From the IMG/VR virus record IMGVR_UViG_3300047586_000129, positions 1-21,037 of that record: a DNA stretch of 21,037 nucleotides. The stretch is one strand, 5' to 3'. This DNA is from a virus. Below, piece by piece: positions 1,944-18,549 of this stretch. The position numbers were made by a program, and so were the translations under genes. How positions within the stretch are numbered: position 1 is the stretch's first letter; the number at the start of each line of letters is the position of its first letter. The notes under the pieces are model-generated. The model was not told the origin of the DNA and ran no database searches. It saw only the letters and a program-made list of their open reading frames with translations.

Positions 1944-2646
1944 GGCCGGGGAATATGCTGACTGGGCGGCCAATTTGTTCACAGGATGTTCTCACGGCTG
2001 CTTATACTGCTATGTCCCCGCAATCATTCACAAAACCCGTGAAGATTTCGCAAAGGTTGAGCCTCGGAAAAACATTCTTTCAAAGTTGGAAGATGATGCC
2101 TGTTATCTATGTCTGCATCCTGAAATGGGGAAATCAGTCTTTCTTTGTTTTGCCTGTGATCCTTATCCTCCTGAAGATCAAATGGTAACTCGCTGGGCTA
2201 TAGAGATTCTTCACCAAAACGGTATCAGTGTGATGATTCTTACCAAAGGTGGATTCAGGGCGATAAGAGACTTCGATTTGCTTACCCCGGAAGATCAATT
2301 CGGAGTGACGTTGACCTGTCTTACGGTCGCGGAATCCGATAAATGGGAACCCGGAGCTGCCAGCCCCGGCCAGCGCATGCTTTCTCTTAAAAAGGCTCAC
2401 GATTACGGGATCAAGACCTGGGTAAGCCTGGAACCGGTTTTAAACCCTGAGACTACTTTAAAGATCATTCGGGAGACTCACTCATTCGTCGATATGTACA
2501 AGGTGGGAATCCTGAATTATCATCCCCACACACAGTCCATTAATTGGCGTAAATTTGGTCAGGATGTGGTCGAGCTCCTGGATGATCTGAAAGCCAAATA
2601 CTACATCAAAAAGGATTTGGAAAGCTATTTAAAGGTGGGAGTGTAA
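1915..2646 (+). CDS. Radical SAM protein, spore photoproduct lyase-like (COG1533 type)
   Basis: This 243-residue protein has the radical SAM cluster motif C25-x3-C29-x2-C32 in FTGCSHGCLYCY. Such a motif binds a 4Fe-4S cluster and S-adenosylmethionine to generate a 5'-deoxyadenosyl radical. The order of motifs (NLFTGCSHGC, a DPYPPED stretch, TRWAIEIL, ILTKGG, FGVTLT, WVSLEPV) matches the SPL/Rv2578c-like group of small phage and bacterial radical SAM proteins. ATG 1915 is preferred to upstream in-frame starts because GGGAGAAGA stands just before it and the conserved part begins there. Its place in the replication block suggests DNA repair or nucleotide modification. The substrate is unknown. 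Confidence 0.8.
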   Translation: MEIIYHPKGKAGEYADWAANLFTGCSHGCLYCYVPAIIHKTREDFAKVEPRKNILSKLEDDACYLCLHPEMGKSVFLCFACDPYPPEDQMVTRWAIEILHQNGISVMILTKGGFRAIRDFDLLTPEDQFGVTLTCLTVAESDKWEPGAASPGQRMLSLKKAHDYGIKTWVSLEPVLNPETTLKIIRETHSFVDMYKVGILNYHPHTQSINWRKFGQDVVELLDDLKAKYYIKKDLESYLKVGV

Positions 2647-2890
2647 TGTTAAAACCCTTCTTAATAGCTGACTTGTTTTGTGGAACTGGCTGTTCATCCG
2701 ACTTTAGGATGTTAACGCATATTAGCCTATTTTCAGGAATTGGATGTAGTGATATTGCCTCTGGGTGGGCCGGATTTAAAACGGTCTTGATGTGTGAAAT
2801 TGATAAGGATTGCCAAAAAGTCTTGAATAAACACTTCCCAGGGGTACCGATCATTGAGGATATAAAAGATGTCACGAGAGAATCAGTTAT
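2646..2890 (+). pseudogene. DNA methyltransferase N-terminal fragments (two motif-I remnants in one frame)
   Basis: The open frame starts at ATG 2646, which overlaps the radical SAM stop. It opens with IADLFCGTGCSS, which resembles motif I of one DNA methyltransferase. After an internal ATG at 2709 it gives ISLFSGIGCSDIASGWAGF, motif I of a second, Dcm-like cytosine methyltransferase, followed by CEIDKDCQKVLNKHFP and IEDIKDVTRES. The sequence then loses resemblance at about 2885. The PCQ catalytic motif and everything beyond are missing. The frame stays open to 3296, but the rest reads as a shadow of other frames. This looks like a Dcm gene broken by deletion, with a second methyltransferase start fused to it. 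Confidence 0.7.
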
Positions 2891-3096
2891 TGCCAACACC
2901 GAGAGCCACAAAGACAACCAACGAGAACGCGGAAGCATGGCAGAAGAGGCAAGCGGACGGGAAGGTACCAACCTCTCCTTTAGCGTTAGCAATAAACCTT
3001 TTACCAACACCTCAAGTATTCGATGCAACGGGCGGGAATCTGAAAGGGTTTATGCAAGCGTCATTATCAACAACAATGGGCTACCGGATCACCTGA
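2869..3096 (+). pseudogene. Out-of-frame middle fragment of a phage DNA methyltransferase-like gene
   Basis: In the next frame, from ATG 2869 (with GAGGA upstream), the translation gives NQLLPTPRATK, a charged stretch AWQKRQADGKV, then LLPTPQVFDATGGNLKG. Repeated LLPTP segments are typical of the variable or C-terminal part of phage cytosine methyltransferases. The likeness ends near 3040, and the last residues before TGA 3094-3096 are noise read from the HNH gene frame. It may be translated as a 75-residue peptide, but I read it as a deletion remnant joined out of frame to the Dcm N-terminus. Confidence 0.5.
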
Positions 3097-3553
3097 TATC
3101 AAAAGACCTAATCCACACGGAACTCCTGAAGAGCGATTCTGGAGTCATGTTGATAAACGAGGAGTGGATGAATGTTGGAATTGGACAGGTTTTTGTGATA
3201 AAGACGGTTATGGTCACTTTCGCGTTGGGAAAACCCAGACGCCGGCTCACCGCTTTTCTTATGAGTTACAAAATGGGCCTTTACCTTCGAATATAATGGC
3301 GTGCCATAAATGCAATAATCCACAGTGTGTTAATCCTTCTCATATTGAACCAGGTGATCAACTTGAAAATATGGCTGATAGAGTGGCTGCTGGCCACTAC
3401 ACTTCAGGCGAAAATCATCCCATGGCAAAGCTATCTAATAAGCAAGTAGCTGAAGTGAGGGGAGCATCGGGAACCTATAAAGAAATTGCAGATCATTTTG
3501 GTATCTCATTATCTCAAGTTGGAAATATCAAACGAGGTGATCAACGTGTCTAA
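3044..3553 (+). pseudogene. HNH homing endonuclease lacking its 5' end
   Basis: The frame is open from just after TGA 3041-3043 and reads GLCKRHYQQQWATGSPD, then HGTPEERFWSHVDK, DECWNWTG, YGHFRVGK, AHRFSYELQNGPLP, ACHKCNNPQCVNPSHIEPG and NMADRVAAG. This is the standard layout of phage HNH homing endonucleases, followed by a helix-turn-helix DNA-binding end (KLSNKQVAEVRG ... YKEIADHFGISLSQVGNIKRG). The Zn-finger part upstream of GLCKRH is cut off, and no normal start precedes it. The first usable start is GTG 3164, which could still give an intact 129-residue HNH core. It could be a live truncated nuclease or a relic. Its 5' end joins methyltransferase debris. Confidence 0.7.
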
Positions 3554-10145: not shown

Positions 10146-12179
10146 ATGCCAAACGAAACCAAACCTGAAAATAAATCAGTCCAGATCAAACCTCAGTTCG
10201 AGGAAATGCCGCGTTCCAGTTATGTCCTCTCTCTGGCATCTATTGCCGATGACATTATTCCCTGGGGCGGTAACCCCCATGCGCGGGATATCCTGTTAAG
10301 ATCATTCTGGCCGACAGAGCCTTACCTGGCCAGTGCTATTTACACTATTATCTCCCGTAATGTGGCTTTCAACTGGACTCTGGACGGACCTCCCCGGACA
10401 GTCAAGGTTATCCAGGATATGCTTCATAACGCCGATCTGGGCCGGGGCTGGTTATCGTTTATCACTAAGCTGTCTATTGATTTATTCACCTGCGATAACG
10501 GCGCATTTATTGAGGTTATTAGGGGCGGACTATCAGAGACTTCCCCGGTTATCGGTATTGCTAACCTTGACTCAGGACGATGCAGGCGCACGGGGGTCCC
10601 GGACTGGCCTGTAGTCTATACTGATCGGAACGGTGCAGAACACAAAATGCTTCCCTGGCAGGTCATTACGGTTGAAGAATTCCCCAGTCCCATTGAGACT
10701 ATGAATAATGTCCAGATGTGCGCTGTCTCCAGAATCCTCAGAATGGCTCAACTCATGCGGGATATTTCAGTCTACAAGAGGGAAAAAGTATCCGGTCACG
10801 CTAGGGCCATTGACCTGGTATCTGGCATCCGGACTCAGGAAATAGAGGATGCTCTCAAGGCGCATGGTGAAGAGCAGGCTGCACAGGGATTTATCAGATT
10901 TATCAAGCCTATGATTTTTGGCACTCTTGACCCTAACGCTAAGGTCGCTCATGAGAGAATCGATCTATCTTCCTTACCCGATGGGTTTGACGAAGAAGTC
11001 ACGATGAAATGGTATATTTCTTTACTGGCCATGGGTTTCGGAGCGGACTATCAGGACTTCGCACCTTTTCCTGGTGGCGGGCTCGGATCTTCTCAACAGT
11101 CTCAAATCTTACATCAGAAGAGTCGCGGGAAAGGTCCAGCGCTCTTTATGAAAACCCTGGAGCATAAATTCAACTTCCACGGCGTTATCCCTCAGAATGT
11201 AACGTTTAGATATGATGAACAGGACACCGCTGGAGACATGGAGCAGGCCTCCCTTTCTAAAATGCGAGCGGATACCGCCAATGTTTATGTACTTAATGGG
11301 GTACTCACTCCAGAAGCGGTTAGGCAGCAGATGTTAGATCGTGGCGAACTTACTCAAGAAGAGTTCGACAAACTCCAGATAGAACCGGATGTCACGCCGG
11401 ATGTTGTAGCGAATGATACGGAACCGTTGGAGTCAAAATCCAGGGGTTCCAAGTTCAATGAAAATCACGATCCGGATAATGGACAATTTGCGGCGGGAGA
11501 GGGAGGTGGGGGAAGTTCTGGTGGGAATGATGATTATTCTGATACAAGTTCATTATTTGGTTATAATTATTCACCATCGAGTAAACCTATTAAAAGTGAT
11601 GAATATAAGCCCACGGAGCAAGAGGAAAAGTGGGCTAATAATCTACCAGACAAAGAAAGACAATCAATTCATAGTTGGCAAACAGGAGGGACTAATTATA
11701 TAAGAAATTATCAAATAACTGGGAAAGCCGATGAAACTGGGGAAGCTGATGAATATTACAAAAAAATAACCGCCAATTTTGAATCCTCTTTAGACAAAGG
11801 TATACCCTACAAAGGTGAGGTTTATAGGGGCTTACACGATTTGAATGACGATTCATACGAATCGGTGATTAACAGTAAAGAAATTACATTAAAAAGTGTA
11901 GCTTCAGCATCAATATCAGAAGAAAGAGCTAAGTTTTTTATTCAACCTATTGGAGATAAACCAACAAAAAGCGTATTGTTTAAAATAGATAACAAAACAG
12001 GGGTGAATATATCCGCTGTATCAAATGATAGTTTTAAACATGAAGTTGAAGTTGTGTTAAGAAAAAACACTAGATATGAGGTTGCATCCATTGAACCGAC
12101 TAAATTTAACTATCACGATGGTGTGCATAATGCTGATAAAACCATCGATGGTGCAATTATACATTTAAAAGAAAAATAG
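10146..12179 (+). CDS. Portal protein fused to a C-terminal ADP-ribosyltransferase domain
   Basis: This 677-residue protein starts at ATG 10146 behind GAGGT. Residues 1 to about 430 are a siphovirus portal (ILLRSFWPTEPYLASAIYTI, LSIDLFTCDNGAFIEVIR, PWQVITVEEFPSPIET, LAMGFGADYQDFAPFPGG), the dodecameric ring through which DNA enters and leaves the head. Residues 436-451 (KFNENHDPDNGQFAAG) are a linker found before effector domains of phage head proteins, followed by a Gly/Ser run. Residues about 500-677 look like an R-S-E ADP-ribosyltransferase: R561 in VYRGL, S587-A-S589 in VASASIS, E633-V-E635 in HEVEVVL. The last third is visibly more AT-rich, suggesting acquisition. It could be injected with the DNA or act on host targets. 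Confidence 0.82.
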   Translation: MPNETKPENKSVQIKPQFEEMPRSSYVLSLASIADDIIPWGGNPHARDILLRSFWPTEPYLASAIYTIISRNVAFNWTLDGPPRTVKVIQDMLHNADLGRGWLSFITKLSIDLFTCDNGAFIEVIRGGLSETSPVIGIANLDSGRCRRTGVPDWPVVYTDRNGAEHKMLPWQVITVEEFPSPIETMNNVQMCAVSRILRMAQLMRDISVYKREKVSGHARAIDLVSGIRTQEIEDALKAHGEEQAAQGFIRFIKPMIFGTLDPNAKVAHERIDLSSLPDGFDEEVTMKWYISLLAMGFGADYQDFAPFPGGGLGSSQQSQILHQKSRGKGPALFMKTLEHKFNFHGVIPQNVTFRYDEQDTAGDMEQASLSKMRADTANVYVLNGVLTPEAVRQQMLDRGELTQEEFDKLQIEPDVTPDVVANDTEPLESKSRGSKFNENHDPDNGQFAAGEGGGGSSGGNDDYSDTSSLFGYNYSPSSKPIKSDEYKPTEQEEKWANNLPDKERQSIHSWQTGGTNYIRNYQITGKADETGEADEYYKKITANFESSLDKGIPYKGEVYRGLHDLNDDSYESVINSKEITLKSVASASISEERAKFFIQPIGDKPTKSVLFKIDNKTGVNISAVSNDSFKHEVEVVLRKNTRYEVASIEPTKFNYHDGVHNADKTIDGAIIHLKEK

Positions 12180-12181
12180 AT

Positions 12182-12637
12182 TTATTTTTTCCTGGGTTTA
12201 TTCCAGTATGGCGATTTACATTCGGGATTGGGGCAGACCTTGGGGAATGCTTCAGAGCGCGGAGGCCATGTGTAACCACACCGTAGGCATTTTAAAATAG
12301 GTAATATAATAGTCGGTTCTAACCCTGTTCCTTTTAGTATGCTTGCAAGTATAATATCCAGATCATCCGGTATCATGTGAGGTCTTACTGTGTTGGTGTA
12401 GGCGGCAACAACATCAAATTCGCCCATATTATGTCGATATGCAATAATATCCATTCCCCAAAACCATATTTTGATTATCTTGCCATCATCTTGAGTTATT
12501 ATTGCTTCGGGTTTTATTTTCCGTCTCTCCATTTCGGCGACATATCTTTCTATTCCGGGGACTGTTTTCCGATATTCCGCTGCGGGAATATCATCAGTAT
12601 CCATCCCAAACGTGGGGTAATTTTGCTTAATTTTCAT
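12182..12637 (-). CDS. Leftward cargo protein with C-terminal zinc ribbon
   Basis: This 151-residue protein starts at ATG 12637 with GGAG eight bases upstream and ends two bases from the portal stop, tail to tail. Residues 1 to about 110 are unrecognised but well-formed α/β (PGIERYVAEMERRKIKPEAI, IKIWFWGMDIIAYRHN). The end carries CLRCGYTW ... VCPNPECKSPYWNKP, a two-knuckle zinc ribbon frequent at the C-terminus of small prophage and antitoxin-like proteins. It follows the next leftward gene in a two-gene operon. A moron or anti-phage role is possible but not shown. Confidence 0.7.
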   Translation of the reverse strand: MKIKQNYPTFGMDTDDIPAAEYRKTVPGIERYVAEMERRKIKPEAIITQDDGKIIKIWFWGMDIIAYRHNMGEFDVVAAYTNTVRPHMIPDDLDIILASILKGTGLEPTIILPILKCLRCGYTWPPRSEAFPKVCPNPECKSPYWNKPRKK

Positions 12638-12661
12638 TTTCTCAACTCCTTTTATTTAAAG

Positions 12662-12997
12662 CTATCCAATCCAATTTCTTAAATCATCAATTTTAGGAAA
12701 AAACTCTACGGTTGCCAGTTGAATATCTTTTGGCAGTTCTTTCGCATTAGCAACAAATATTGACCACCTAATGTTGTTGCGGTTTTCAATAACCCAGGAT
12801 GCTGTTTCTATATTCTTTAGTTTATCAGCGATTAGTTTTTCGATAGCTTGGCGTGTATTCAGTATTTTAAGTTCGGCAGTACAATCTTTCAAACGATCAT
12901 ATCTTTCCTGTGCTTCTCTTAGATTATTATTGCCTTTGGCGATAGCAGTGTTAATAATGGATTCCGCCCATTTGATTTGTTTCTGTGTCCCGATCAT
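12662..12997 (-). CDS. Leftward helical cargo protein, 111 residues
   Basis: ATG 12997 is chosen because AAGGAGC stands just before it and transcription should start near 13019; the longer frame to 13054 reaches into the promoter. The protein begins MIGTQKQIKWAESIINTAI and continues with predicted helices (NLREAQERYDRLKD, TRQAIEKLIADKLKN, ETASWVIENRN). The GTQKQIKWAE start is a pattern I associate with small plasmid and phage proteins of unknown role. It is first in the operon; the zinc-ribbon gene follows after 24 bases. Confidence 0.7.
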   Translation of the reverse strand: MIGTQKQIKWAESIINTAIAKGNNNLREAQERYDRLKDCTAELKILNTRQAIEKLIADKLKNIETASWVIENRNNIRWSIFVANAKELPKDIQLATVEFFPKIDDLRNWIG

Positions 12998-13025
12998 TAT
13001 GTGCTCCTTAATCTCTATACTTAAC

Positions 13026-13054
13026 AGTATATACCGATTAGTATAGTTTGTCAA
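13026..13054 (-). promoter_or_regulatory. Leftward promoter of the two-gene cargo operon
   Basis: On the minus strand, TTGACA (13054-13049), 17 bases and TATACT (13031-13026) make a near-consensus sigma70 promoter, about 30 bases upstream of ATG 12997. It overlaps the untranslated region of the rightward MuF gene, so the cargo can be expressed apart from the late genes, for instance from a prophage. Confidence 0.75.
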
Positions 13055-13071
13055 TAGGTAGGTTAAAAATA

Positions 13072-14808
13072 ATGCGTAAATATTCCGATGATACTTTAGA
13101 TTTTATAAAACTTACCCCAAAATCCAAATCCCTTAAGCGTCCTGATTTTATGGATAGAGAACGCCGGAAAGCCGAAGCCGCATTCCAAACGGATATCCAA
13201 AAAGCTCTTACAGACTCCCTTGCTGATTTTAAAAAAAAAATCCTGAGTAACAAATCCCAAAAAGAATACTTGCCATTTGCCGATGACATAATTAACGATG
13301 AGGAAATGTGGGAAACCTTCAGAGTCCGGGTAGTCGGCGCCGCTCAACCTTATTTTAGGAACGGTGCTCTTCAGGCGGCCGCTTATAATGCCAATCTGGG
13401 ACTGGGTGTTAATATGGACTGGGTCAATCAGGCTGTATTAGACTTCACACGCACGTATGCTAACGACTGGTGGATGGAGTTAGCCAAAGTCACACGCGAC
13501 GGCCTCAGGAAGGCGATTGTAGCGTGGCAGGAAACCGGACTTGGTGAACAGGGCCTCCAAGACCTTGTCAATTCCATAACTCCCTTATTTGGAGAGGATA
13601 GAGCGCGCCGGATTGCAATCACAGAGACGACTAAGATATTCGATGAAGGAAATAAACTCGCTCATATTTCGGCGGGCATTAAATACGAGCAGTGGCAGAC
13701 GGCAGAAGATGAATTTACCTGTCCTGTCTGCTCAGGTCTGAACGAACAGTATTTCCCAACGGAATCGGGGCCTAGACCGGTAGTCGACACCCATCCTAAT
13801 TGCCTATTACCAGACAATGAAATCCTAATCTCTAATTTGATTGCTGGAAGCAGGGCTCATTATTCCGGTAGGGCTATTGAAATATCCACTGCTAGTGGGA
13901 ATAGACTGTCCGTTACCCCTAATCACCCGATACTCACCAATAGTGGGTTTATTAAGGCTAAGATGTTGCAGGAAGGAGACTATGTAATCAGCGGCACCGA
14001 TAGTAAGCGGATAATTTCTGCAATCAACCCAGATAATAACCAGAGACCAACCCGAATTGAGGAGATATGGAACTCGCTTTGTCTGAGTTCTAAGATGGTG
14101 ACTAGCCATATGCCAACCACCCCCATTGATTTCCACGGCGACGCGGAGTTTTTCAACGGCAATATCGACATTGTATATTCCAATAGCTTTTTGCTGAATA
14201 ATATCAAAAATCCCTTTTTGTTTCAGCATATTAACAAAAATAAACTCGGTATTAGAGGCATGAACAAGAGTTCTTTCCAAGGTGATAGCCCTCTTTTCTT
14301 TTTCGACAATAGAGGCTTTGCGCCCCCGAACGGCAGTATGAGCAGCCGCGCTTCTCGATTGGCGTTGCTCGATAGACATATGAGACATCGACACGGTATT
14401 AGCCTGGCTTCCATTTCGAGGTTTAATTCCGGCATTTATAATGGCCCGATGGATCACGTTTCTAAAAATACCGTACTTCTTAGACAAGGCAAGTTCAGAT
14501 ATCCCAGAGATGTATTCGGAAATCAAAGTTTCAGGAATAGGGATGCACCGATCAACTCTAATAATATTGCGACTATCCAACAATCTGTAAAGGGTTTGGG
14601 GACTTATTTTAAACTCGCTAACCAAATCACGCACGCATTCGCCGGATTGATAACGCTTGATAAGATCGTCAGAATTAGGGATTATAATTTTAACGGCCAT
14701 GTTTACGACCTCCAATCTATAGAACAATTTTACATCAGCAATAACATAATTGTCAAGAATTGCCGATGTATGCGCGAACCTGCGGCAAATTATAATCCGG
14801 TGGAGTAA
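13072..14808 (+). CDS. MuF-like head morphogenesis protein interrupted by an intein
   Basis: The 578-codon precursor starts at ATG 13072 with AGGTAGG upstream. Residues 1-243 form the MuF/SPP1 gp7-type minor head protein, found beside the portal and possibly ejected with DNA: GLGEQGLQDLVNSI, FGEDRARRIAITETTKI, YEQWQTAEDEFTCPVCSGL. A 320-residue intein (244-563) follows inside the terminal HPN/CRC metal-binding motif. The C-extein is only 15 residues (CRCMREPAANYNPVE). Splicing would give a 258-residue protein and rebuild HPNCRC with CPVC as a likely Zn site. Without splicing this site is broken, so splicing is probably required for virion assembly. Confidence 0.88.
   Translation: MRKYSDDTLDFIKLTPKSKSLKRPDFMDRERRKAEAAFQTDIQKALTDSLADFKKKILSNKSQKEYLPFADDIINDEEMWETFRVRVVGAAQPYFRNGALQAAAYNANLGLGVNMDWVNQAVLDFTRTYANDWWMELAKVTRDGLRKAIVAWQETGLGEQGLQDLVNSITPLFGEDRARRIAITETTKIFDEGNKLAHISAGIKYEQWQTAEDEFTCPVCSGLNEQYFPTESGPRPVVDTHPNCLLPDNEILISNLIAGSRAHYSGRAIEISTASGNRLSVTPNHPILTNSGFIKAKMLQEGDYVISGTDSKRIISAINPDNNQRPTRIEEIWNSLCLSSKMVTSHMPTTPIDFHGDAEFFNGNIDIVYSNSFLLNNIKNPFLFQHINKNKLGIRGMNKSSFQGDSPLFFFDNRGFAPPNGSMSSRASRLALLDRHMRHRHGISLASISRFNSGIYNGPMDHVSKNTVLLRQGKFRYPRDVFGNQSFRNRDAPINSNNIATIQQSVKGLGTYFKLANQITHAFAGLITLDKIVRIRDYNFNGHVYDLQSIEQFYISNNIIVKNCRCMREPAANYNPVE
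13801..14760 (+). other. Intein in MuF (protein-splicing element)
   Basis: The element encodes 320 residues from Cys1 (TGC 13801) to the terminal Asn (AAT 14758-14760), followed by extein Cys. Block A is CLLPDNEIL and block B is LSVTPNHPILT with the T-x-x-H catalytic pair. A middle block contains TTPIDFHGD and NIDIVYSNSFLL. Block F is FNGHVYDLQS and block G is IIVKN/C. The residue before the terminal Asn is Lys instead of the common His. The end (FAGLITLDKIVRI through block G) matches phage MuF-type inteins well. No sense-strand LAGLIDADG or HNH nuclease domain is present; a nuclease lies antisense. Boundaries are set by the HPN/CRC motif. Confidence 0.9.
13825..14700 (-). CDS. Vsr-like (EDxHD-type) homing endonuclease encoded antisense to the intein
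   Basis: This 291-residue protein starts at ATG 14700, seven bases after a full GGAGGT, and ends at TAG 13827-13825, wholly inside the intein. Residues 12-48 (ECVRDLVSEFKISPQTLYRLL) and 57-92 (ISELALSKKYGIFRNVIHRAI) are two helix-turn-helix units. The nuclease core at about 150-262 has E152 (NTEFIF), D179 (IYNVDIA), E190 and H197 (VEINGGGWH), then NSGWSLVIIW and GEYRVIRGNG, as in the Vsr-related homing endonucleases of the I-Bth0305I kind. The last 30 residues are Ser/Pro/Asn-rich. It should cut intein-less MuF alleles and so spread the intein. No separate promoter is obvious. Confidence 0.85.
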   Translation of the reverse strand: MAVKIIIPNSDDLIKRYQSGECVRDLVSEFKISPQTLYRLLDSRNIIRVDRCIPIPETLISEYISGISELALSKKYGIFRNVIHRAIINAGIKPRNGSQANTVSMSHMSIEQRQSRSAAAHTAVRGRKASIVEKEKRAITLERTLVHASNTEFIFVNMLKQKGIFDIIQQKAIGIYNVDIAVEKLRVAVEINGGGWHMASHHLRTQTKRVPYLLNSGWSLVIIWVDCRNYPLTIGAADYIVSFLQHLSLNKPTIGEYRVIRGNGQSIPTSSGYFNSPTGIMSPASSNQIRD

Positions 14809-16694: not shown

Positions 16695-17099
16695 ATGATC
16701 AAACTCGAAGCCATAGCGCCTAAGAATCTAATAGCCGATAAAAATAAAATTGTTGCCGCTCTCTATCTGGCTGTGCAGGATACGGTAAGCGAAGGGCAAA
16801 GATATATAGCAAAGTATCCCCCTCAAACGTTAACAAAAACTGGCTATCATCGGACCGGAACGCTTAAAAAGTCATGGTCAAGTGAAATCCATATGGGCGG
16901 TAATCGAATAGAGGGAATTGTCGGATCGAACTCCAATATCGCTCCATACAATCGGGACGTGCAGGGCAACTCCGGCGACCGCAATCCGATGTTTAATAAT
17001 GCAGGATGGCCCGGGATTCCCGAGCTTAAAGAAAAGATGAATACCGAACTCAAAAAACGGATAGATCAACAAATGGAAAGAGCAGTAGGAGGCAAATAA
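16695..17099 (+). CDS. HK97 gp10-like head-tail component
   Basis: This 134-residue protein follows AGGA upstream of ATG 16695. The layout is a helical start (KNKIVAALYLAVQDTVSEG), then RTGTLKKSWSSEI and IVGSNSNIAPYNRDVQG. The RTGxLxxS-plus-VGxxxxxAPY pattern is that of HK97 gp10-like proteins, which act at the head-tail junction or neck. The last 40 residues are helical and charged (ELKEKMNTELKKRIDQQ). In many phages this gene comes after the capsid gene; here it comes before. The match is by pattern, so it is moderately sure. Confidence 0.65.
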   Translation: MIKLEAIAPKNLIADKNKIVAALYLAVQDTVSEGQRYIAKYPPQTLTKTGYHRTGTLKKSWSSEIHMGGNRIEGIVGSNSNIAPYNRDVQGNSGDRNPMFNNAGWPGIPELKEKMNTELKKRIDQQMERAVGGK

Positions 17100-17100
17100 G

Positions 17101-18549
17101 ATGCCATACACCGGAATTACAGACGAATCTTTACCCGAAAATGTTAAGAAAATGGACGACAAGATGAAAAGCCAGTGGATAGGCGCGTTCAACGGATCCC
17201 ATAAATCCTGTATGGCTAAAGACGGCGCGGACGCTAAACAGTGCGAGACTTCGGCCTTCGCGATAGCCAATGCGGCCGTTAAAGGCAAAAAAGACTGGGG
17301 AGATGAAAACACCTCGATGTCTTGTAACATTGCGAACGCGCCGGTTATCGATATGACCGCTACCACTTTTGAGGAATTGGAGGCCGATGAAACAGTACAG
17401 GAACAGGCAGAAGAAATGCAGAAATTGAACAAGCAGACGATGACACTGGTAACCAACGTTATCAATGCAGATATCCCGGATAAACCTTCAGCGCTACAAA
17501 GGATAGTTGACGGATTGAAATTAAAACTGTCCAAACTCCTGGGAAAGAAATTGGAAACCCCCACGGATACCCCCACGATAGAAACCGGCATGGCGGAAAA
17601 GAAGCCTGAAAATTCCTACTTTACACTTACCAAAGACAAATCCGGTGATTACCGCTGGTTTGCCCTTGTCTCTAACCATTTCAGGGATGCTGACAATCCC
17701 CCGGAAATATTCGAAACCAAGGCGCACAGGGATTTTGTTGACTATCTGGACAAGGGCGGCAAATATCCAGAATTGTGGTTATGGCATACACCAGGAACCA
17801 AATGCGGCAAAGCGGACTGGATAGATTTTGATCACGGCTTCCTTATGGCATCCGGGACTTTTGATAAGGACAAAAAGGATGTTGCTGATAAGCTGGCTGC
17901 TGATCCTAACCTGGGAGTCTCCCACGGATACAATTTCCACAACTCAGAAAAGGACAATAGCATTATCGATTGGTATCGAACATTTGAAATTTCGCCGCTC
18001 CCGAAAGAGGCAGCGGCTAATCCATATACAGGAATCGAAATAATTAGGCAGGAGGCCAAAAATATGAATGCAAATAAACGAGTATTCCTGGTAGACAAAC
18101 TTGGTGAAGACAGGGTAAAGGAACTTGAGAGCCGCCCTGCTGAATTATCCAAAGCTCTCAAAGATCAAGGGATCGAATACAAAGAGATCGAGACTCCGGT
18201 AACTCCTCCTCCGGCGCCGGCAAGCACCAAAGAGATCGCGGATGCGGCTGTCAAGGCTATCACGGAATCCGAAGCGTTCAAGGCGATCAACACGGCTCTC
18301 ACGGAAGCCAAAGCGAAGTCCGACAAGTTTGAAACGACTATTCTGGAGATGGGTAAGACAATCAAGGAACTCCAGAAATCCGATGATGAGAAAATTGCCG
18401 CAACTATCGCTCCCAAATCAACGGCGGCCGGATTAAAACGGGCATCGGAATCTAAGGACAACCTGGTTGATCCTGAAAAGGATAAGGAATTATCAGGAAC
18501 TAAAGCGGCTCCCTGGCTGGGTGCTGCTCTAGGTGGCATGACAAAGTAG
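17101..18549 (+). CDS. ChaB-like / prohead protease / scaffold fusion protein
   Basis: This 482-residue protein starts at ATG 17101 behind AGGAGG. Residues about 1-65 resemble ChaB-type domains (LPENVKKM, WIGAFNGSHKSC, AFAIANAAVKG). Residues about 175-320 are protease-like: SYFTLTKDKSGDYRWFALVSN, LWLWHTPG with a candidate catalytic His, and LGVSHGYNF with a candidate catalytic Ser, as in XkdF/S78-type prohead maturation proteases. The C-terminal 150 residues are Ala/Lys/Glu-rich and helical (AVKAITESEAFKAINTALTEAK), as in scaffolds, and end APWLGAALGGMTK. Such fused protease-scaffolds shape the prohead and then digest themselves. It directly precedes the capsid gene. Confidence 0.7.
   Translation: MPYTGITDESLPENVKKMDDKMKSQWIGAFNGSHKSCMAKDGADAKQCETSAFAIANAAVKGKKDWGDENTSMSCNIANAPVIDMTATTFEELEADETVQEQAEEMQKLNKQTMTLVTNVINADIPDKPSALQRIVDGLKLKLSKLLGKKLETPTDTPTIETGMAEKKPENSYFTLTKDKSGDYRWFALVSNHFRDADNPPEIFETKAHRDFVDYLDKGGKYPELWLWHTPGTKCGKADWIDFDHGFLMASGTFDKDKKDVADKLAADPNLGVSHGYNFHNSEKDNSIIDWYRTFEISPLPKEAAANPYTGIEIIRQEAKNMNANKRVFLVDKLGEDRVKELESRPAELSKALKDQGIEYKEIETPVTPPPAPASTKEIADAAVKAITESEAFKAINTALTEAKAKSDKFETTILEMGKTIKELQKSDDEKIAATIAPKSTAAGLKRASESKDNLVDPEKDKELSGTKAAPWLGAALGGMTK

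Follow-up and report, generated by a model that had tools for sequence, protein, structure and literature searches.

The question raised by this locus is whether one stretch of phage DNA can encode, on one strand, an intein and, on the other, the homing endonuclease that would make it mobile. The window, i.e., the whole stretch of DNA analysed here, comprises 21,037 bases (IMG/VR virus record IMGVR_UViG_3300047586_000129, positions 1 to 21,037). In it, an ORF of the MuF head-morphogenesis type (13048-14808, plus strand, with ATG 13072 as its likely start codon) is split at HPN^CRC by an intein of 320 codons. The N-extein (13048..13800, plus strand) ends with ...VVDTHPN, matches PHROG head and packaging families and gives a weak match to Phage_Mu_F (E 0.002), and the C-extein (14761..14808, plus strand) begins with CRC; exact empty alleles at the site matching this HPN/CRC junction occur in Salmonella phages. 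The intein (13801..14760, plus strand) runs from Cys1 (13801) to Asn320 (14760), is followed by Cys as the +1 residue, and joins both exteins in the same reading frame (HPN^C...VKN^CRC).

A full plus-strand intein with blocks A, B, F, and G at the HPN/CRC motif of MuF had been proposed in a preliminary description of this DNA, and our searches bear it out, given that the 320-residue product matches the Pfam profile Intein_splicing (PF14890; E 1.8e-11; score 44.5 bits, cutoff 35.8) and its model adopts a Hint fold. The same profile matched in 33 of 35 family members. Cys1, the TxxH of block B, the terminal Asn, and the +1 Cys are all found in the window intein, and C1, T39, H42, and N320 are invariant among 47 aligned inteins. 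The N-terminal Hint half (13801..14184, plus strand; residues 1-128), with blocks A and B and an extra folded segment bearing a conserved DFHGD, is confidently modelled (pLDDT ~78-98 per block of ten), and so is, its first residues excepted, the C-terminal half with blocks F (GHVYDL) and G (VKN) (14584..14760, plus strand; confident from about residue 265 to 320). Between the two lies a linker predicted to be disordered (14185..14583, plus strand; residues 129-261, pLDDT < 50). The intein model superposes on the Mtu RecA mini-intein with a Z of 13.1 over 106 residues. As a separate observation, the segment DFHGD...IDIV (window 14130-14180, plus strand; intein residues ~110-127) is confidently folded in the model, is additional to the mini-intein core, and is more conserved than the overlapping nuclease core would require.

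On the minus strand, a gene of 291 codons extends from ATG 14700 to TAG 13827-13825 (13825..14700), or 300 amino acids if read from an upstream TTG. The codon overlay is exact, with each sense codon facing one antisense codon and position 1 opposite position 3. The preliminary description of this product as a Vsr-like protein with two helix-turn-helix (HTH) units and the residues E152, D179, E190, and H197 is upheld by profile, fold, and alignment alike. The two HTH units (14428..14700, minus strand; residues ~10-43 and ~57-89) are matched by HTH_7 above cutoff and appear as helices in the model; the Vsr/EDxHD nuclease domain (13954..14262, minus strand; residues ~147-249) contains all four of these residues, D179 and E190 being invariant in relatives, E152 conserved in at least 90% of them, and H197 in at least 90% within alignment A6. 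Similarity of the antisense product to nuclease profiles, set beforehand as a test, was indeed found: the PHROG homing endonuclease family matched at 1.2e-4, Pfam MTES_1575 at 1.4e-6 (under its curated cutoff), and DUF559 matched as well, while family profiles reached the EDxHD homing endonuclease I-Bth0305I (3r3p) at 3.6e-7 (A1, 22 relatives) and 2.8e-5 (A6). The deposited 3r3p sequence has Ala where the nuclease has D179. An ATPase match, the sole PDB result of the single-sequence phmmer search, was spurious, as settled by the family profile hit to I-Bth0305I. The AlphaFold model of the nuclease (mean pLDDT 88.6, with disorder confined to residues 270-291) has as its best solved matches Vsr (1cw0, Z 11.4) and I-Bth0305I (3r3p, Z 10.0). 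The two AlphaFold models thus predict a Vsr/I-Bth0305I-type nuclease fold for the antisense protein and a Hint fold of the RecA mini-intein type for the sense protein.

Some neighbouring ORFs of the window deserve a mention in their own right. The ORF upstream of MuF (10146-12179, plus strand) would be the portal gene, to judge by its position and length, and its C-terminal stretch gives a weak match to an ADP-ribosyltransferase exoenzyme (E 4e-4, below cutoff); two minus-strand ORFs between it and MuF (12182-13000) are without clear family matches. Further away, a C-5 DNA methylase ORF (2646-3553, plus strand), matched over its N-terminal part only, overlaps with an ORF (3164-3553) that resembles an HNH_3 endonuclease and has an HTH, possibly a second homing endonuclease insertion.

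Is the arrangement a peculiarity of this phage? The answer is no. With the antisense protein as query, tblastn retrieved 139 phage records at E <= 1e-3, from phages of Salmonella, Gordonia, Pseudomonas, Klebsiella, Vibrio, and Aggregatibacter among others, and for most of the matches listed the gene on the other strand bears the annotation MuF, head morphogenesis, or minor head protein. In IMG/VR, single-protein scans with the window nuclease or MuF gave no matches, and family alignments were needed; alignment A1 held no stretch conserved enough to serve as a scan query. A pattern scan then yielded 232 confirmed relatives, of which 80 were kept, and a second scan added 18; one compared locus was taken from a bacterial genome. 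Across 121 loci, from phages of Gordonia, Salmonella, Pseudomonas, Vibrio, Aggregatibacter, and Helicobacter as well as environmental phages, the overlay frame spanning the nuclease contains no stop and MuF-intein is one continuous ORF as far as the contigs reach; these loci share ancestry, so that the counts are not of independent events. Host codon usage predicts 305 overlay-frame stops over the 65 non-redundant loci, where TTA, CTA, and TCA are used not once. When loci were gathered via the intein, the antisense nuclease was present in all 80 and interrupted by a premature stop in two, although retrieval relied on family-derived motifs and may under-sample intein relatives that are devoid of the nuclease. 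The antisense frame therefore stays open in relatives with intact inteins, as the preliminary description would have it. Scanning with the N-terminal part of the intein gave the same picture and the same two broken contigs, L149/L219 and L192/L250, each with a single premature stop in the nuclease and a full-length intein match; they are candidates for decaying homing endonucleases.

The host genes in the family encode capsid proteins of the MuF, Phage_min_cap2, or VG15 type, some fused to a portal. Two members have unusual surroundings. In locus L045 (2269-4653, minus strand), the ORF with MuF, intein, and antisense nuclease ends in Bacterial toxin 50 (Ntox50, E 2e-29), i.e., an intein-bearing MuF with a polymorphic-toxin tail; in locus L062 (2701-6594, minus strand), a portal-NUDIX-MuF-intein fusion of 1297 amino acids has the antisense nuclease in its intein. 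Bacterial chromosomes rarely carry the family, with one full-length match in 369 genomes of one class and HTH-only matches in another. The antisense gene is annotated in none of the 20 annotated regions inspected, and the record of Escherichia phage BEU35 bears no annotation at all. The intein with its antisense nuclease is a widespread, unannotated phage family of hundreds of loci. Gene callers suppress antisense ORFs, which is the probable reason why it was missed.

Alleles with and without the element provide a view of its mobility. In Salmonella phage LSPA1, the intein lies at HPN^CRS; the same gene of Salmonella phage SE124_1FR is free of it, and the two exteins, once joined, align to that gene at 86.7% identity without any indel. 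In BEU35, a divergent member is inserted at a second site (STT^CRARDG) of a homologous gene, and phage Bas71 has a homologous gene with neither insertion. Between phages, the nucleases share a mean identity of 0.47 vs 0.32 for the adjoining N-exteins (170 non-independent pairs). The empty site of the window phage is inferred from these other phages because it has no close relative. Empty alleles, second site, and the excess of nuclease over extein identity would suit homing, short of proof. They also bear on the possibility that the antisense protein is real and merely parked in the intein, where it would serve as a regulator or a defence nuclease: its HTH modules do resemble those of regulators and of Cbp1, and DUF559/MTES_1575 domains are found in other nucleases too. 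But the gene always lies inside an intein, its architecture of N-terminal HTHs and a C-terminal EDxHD domain is like that of I-Bth0305I, and the presence/absence alleles together with two insertion sites indicate mobility, so that we consider such a role improbable and keep to the homing endonuclease.

Which strand, then, does selection act upon? Profile scores of held-out loci were compared with those after synonymous shuffling that held the protein of the opposite strand. The nuclease profile gave a mean of 283 vs 100 when the sense protein was held, the intein profile 230 vs 130 when the nuclease protein was held, and the observed score exceeded every shuffle in all 32 test loci in each direction. 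Since the two-way shuffles fall short of the observed scores, the conservation of neither protein is explained by that of the other. As the region has no TTA, CTA, or TCA, shuffling could not make stops, and expected stops were therefore computed separately, from host codon usage. Region by region, nuclease residues ~54-169 (HTH and linker) have z scores of 17.9-50.6 for the nuclease and ~0-3 for the sense strand; residues ~175-201, the catalytic core opposite DFHGD, are constrained on both strands (49-53 for the nuclease, 28-32 for the sense strand); and residues ~238-282, opposite blocks B and A, show the strongest sense signal (37-65) with a nuclease z of 5-26, still above expectation. Substitutions in 17 independent close pairs agree: at nuclease codon positions 1/2/3 they number 453/269/839 within the HTH/linker, compared with 129/19/88 for the part facing blocks B/A, a reversal of pattern that was to be expected. 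Judged from these alignments, constraint switches strand along the element, acting on the nuclease only over the HTH/linker, mainly on the intein over blocks A-B, and on both over the nuclease core. Shuffles, regional z scores, and the codon-position reversal thereby confirm the strand-specific constraint that had been anticipated.

This map also changes one claim. The element had been said to cost no extra DNA, with nearly the whole intein read twice. Both strands are indeed constrained over the core, but the statement is exaggerated, for some 400 nt are of use to the nuclease only: intein residues 129-261, being predicted disordered and lacking independent sense-strand constraint, look like DNA kept for the nuclease HTH and linker. 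The disordered stretch of the model mirrors this part of the nuclease and so agrees with the constraint map, as though the linker of the mini-intein were whatever the antisense gene spells. One might go further and regard the nuclease as the sole real gene of the middle region, the intein being dead or a plain ORF and MuF split or inactive, and the disordered, unconstrained middle would fit this. It is, in our opinion, very improbable, as the residues required in blocks A, B, F, and G (C1, TxxH, terminal Asn, +1 Cys) are intact, no signal is stronger than the sense constraint over blocks A-B, the model fits active mini-inteins in superposition, and a dead intein conflicts with the need for a functional MuF. 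That the antisense frame is a mere chance ORF, in a phase which avoids stops if TTA, CTA, and TCA are rare (other antisense ORFs exist in the window, e.g., 237 aa at 16878-17591) and with a homology that is the shadow of a conserved intein, can be dismissed almost entirely: the shuffles refute it, placing nuclease conservation far above what the sense protein forces, and further evidence against it comes from the resemblance to genuine nucleases in profile and fold, the predominance of HTH/linker changes at nuclease third positions, and the stop-free run of 327 codons at the intein vs at most 139 in the overlay phase opposite 16 other genes or gene parts of the window. Profile, fold, strand-specific constraint, and its conservation over hundreds of phage loci thus all support an antisense Vsr-like homing endonuclease within a contiguous intein.

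The start signals of the nuclease are written within the splicing motifs. Its ATG is the reverse complement of CAT, the His codon of block F (GHVY[DN]L), and is preceded by 7 nt by a Shine-Dalgarno sequence, GGAGGT (14708..14713, minus strand), lying within block F codons; GAGGTT/GAGGTC is the reverse complement of the Asn/Asp-Leu codons AAC/GAC CTC. These signals are conserved: the block F Leu is CTC in 50 of 63 non-redundant loci (15.1 expected from the same gene) and the His is CAT in 57 of 65 (26.5 expected), a bias by which the choice of block F codons is, on codon statistics, set by antisense initiation. A candidate sigma70 promoter, TTGACA-N18-TAAAAT (14727..14756, minus strand), with 11 of 12 consensus matches, sits inside blocks F/G; given the sense protein and codon usage its P is 0.08, and in relatives sigma70-like sites exceed synonymous randomisation, 33% of the relatives having P<0.05. 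An internal promoter for the nuclease is accordingly probable, with moderate support.

Taken together, we regard it as very probable that the locus is a mobile intein unit whose two strands both code, with a mini-intein in sense and a separate EDxHD/Vsr homing endonuclease in antisense. The nuclease gene, beginning in block F and stopping just inside block A, would be expressed through its own Shine-Dalgarno and probably its own promoter, and these signals may let it act early, MuF being presumably a late protein. The nuclease would then attack, in trans, those MuF alleles of co-infecting phages that are free of the intein, the HTH modules locating the empty MuF gene for a cut near HPN|CRC, and repair after the cut would complete homing by copying the whole element. 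The insertion may do little harm because the mini-intein should splice itself out of the MuF head protein.

How does such a unit relate to what is known? In mobile inteins, the nuclease had been taken to lie either within the intein protein itself or next to the two halves of a split intein. With those carrying an in-frame LAGLIDADG nuclease, e.g., PI-SceI, it shares the Hint domain, the conserved insertion point, a nuclease, and presence/absence alleles; whereas their nuclease is part of the intein polypeptide, the one found here has a gene of its own on the other strand, and in place of an in-frame endonuclease between the splicing blocks the sense strand has a middle predicted to be disordered. 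In the 'fractured genes' of Dassa et al. 2009, the nuclease is reportedly a separate gene between two split-intein halves. In contrast to that arrangement of two ORFs with the nuclease between, the MuF-intein ORF is continuous and encodes the intein as a single chain, with the nuclease gene lying over it in antisense.

Nucleases of the EDxHD/I-Bth0305I type accompany split inteins and phage group I introns (Dassa et al. 2009, cited through PMC10448857 and PMC12350094), and, as in the window nuclease, a Vsr-like domain is joined to HTH DNA-binding modules in these systems. A likeness in orientation comes from nuclear group I introns of Didymium (I-DsqI, Dir.S956-2), with homing endonuclease genes in antisense (PMC9548176, PMC3679873) and, as here, opposite a splicing element, a promoter of their own having been proposed. 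There, however, the gene occupies a peripheral RNA loop and only one strand codes for protein, whereas here both strands must encode working proteins. The intein-containing capsid morphogenesis protein gp15 of the Salmonella Jersey-like phage UPWr_S (PMC8425127) also belongs to this context, for a locus of phage UPWr_S5 (L018) is a member of the present family; the passages of that account consulted mention the intein only, not the antisense nuclease.

A new system had been suspected. In a limited literature search, we found no published description of an antisense homing endonuclease in an intein; the design, far from unique to the window, belongs to a widespread phage family. In our judgement, the family is likely to form a class of mobile inteins that is new. 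A complete antisense nuclease gene would have its promoter, Shine-Dalgarno, and start written in the codons of blocks F and G, neither splicing nor the late timing of the host gene would govern its expression, and in many phage lineages hundreds of bp would be selected at once for two folded proteins unrelated to each other. The two selfish activities, splicing and cutting, would be packed on opposite strands, with translation signals hidden in splicing-motif codons, and the family would be a strong example from nature of one stretch of DNA whose two strands evolve as folded proteins with linked functions. Phage systems open to experiment can, moreover, be drawn from the family, as can many compact inteins and a large number of site-specific nucleases that have gone unannotated. 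In function and parts, it is a mobile intein with an EDxHD nuclease; in arrangement, it departs both from the classical inteins with an in-frame endonuclease and from the fractured genes.
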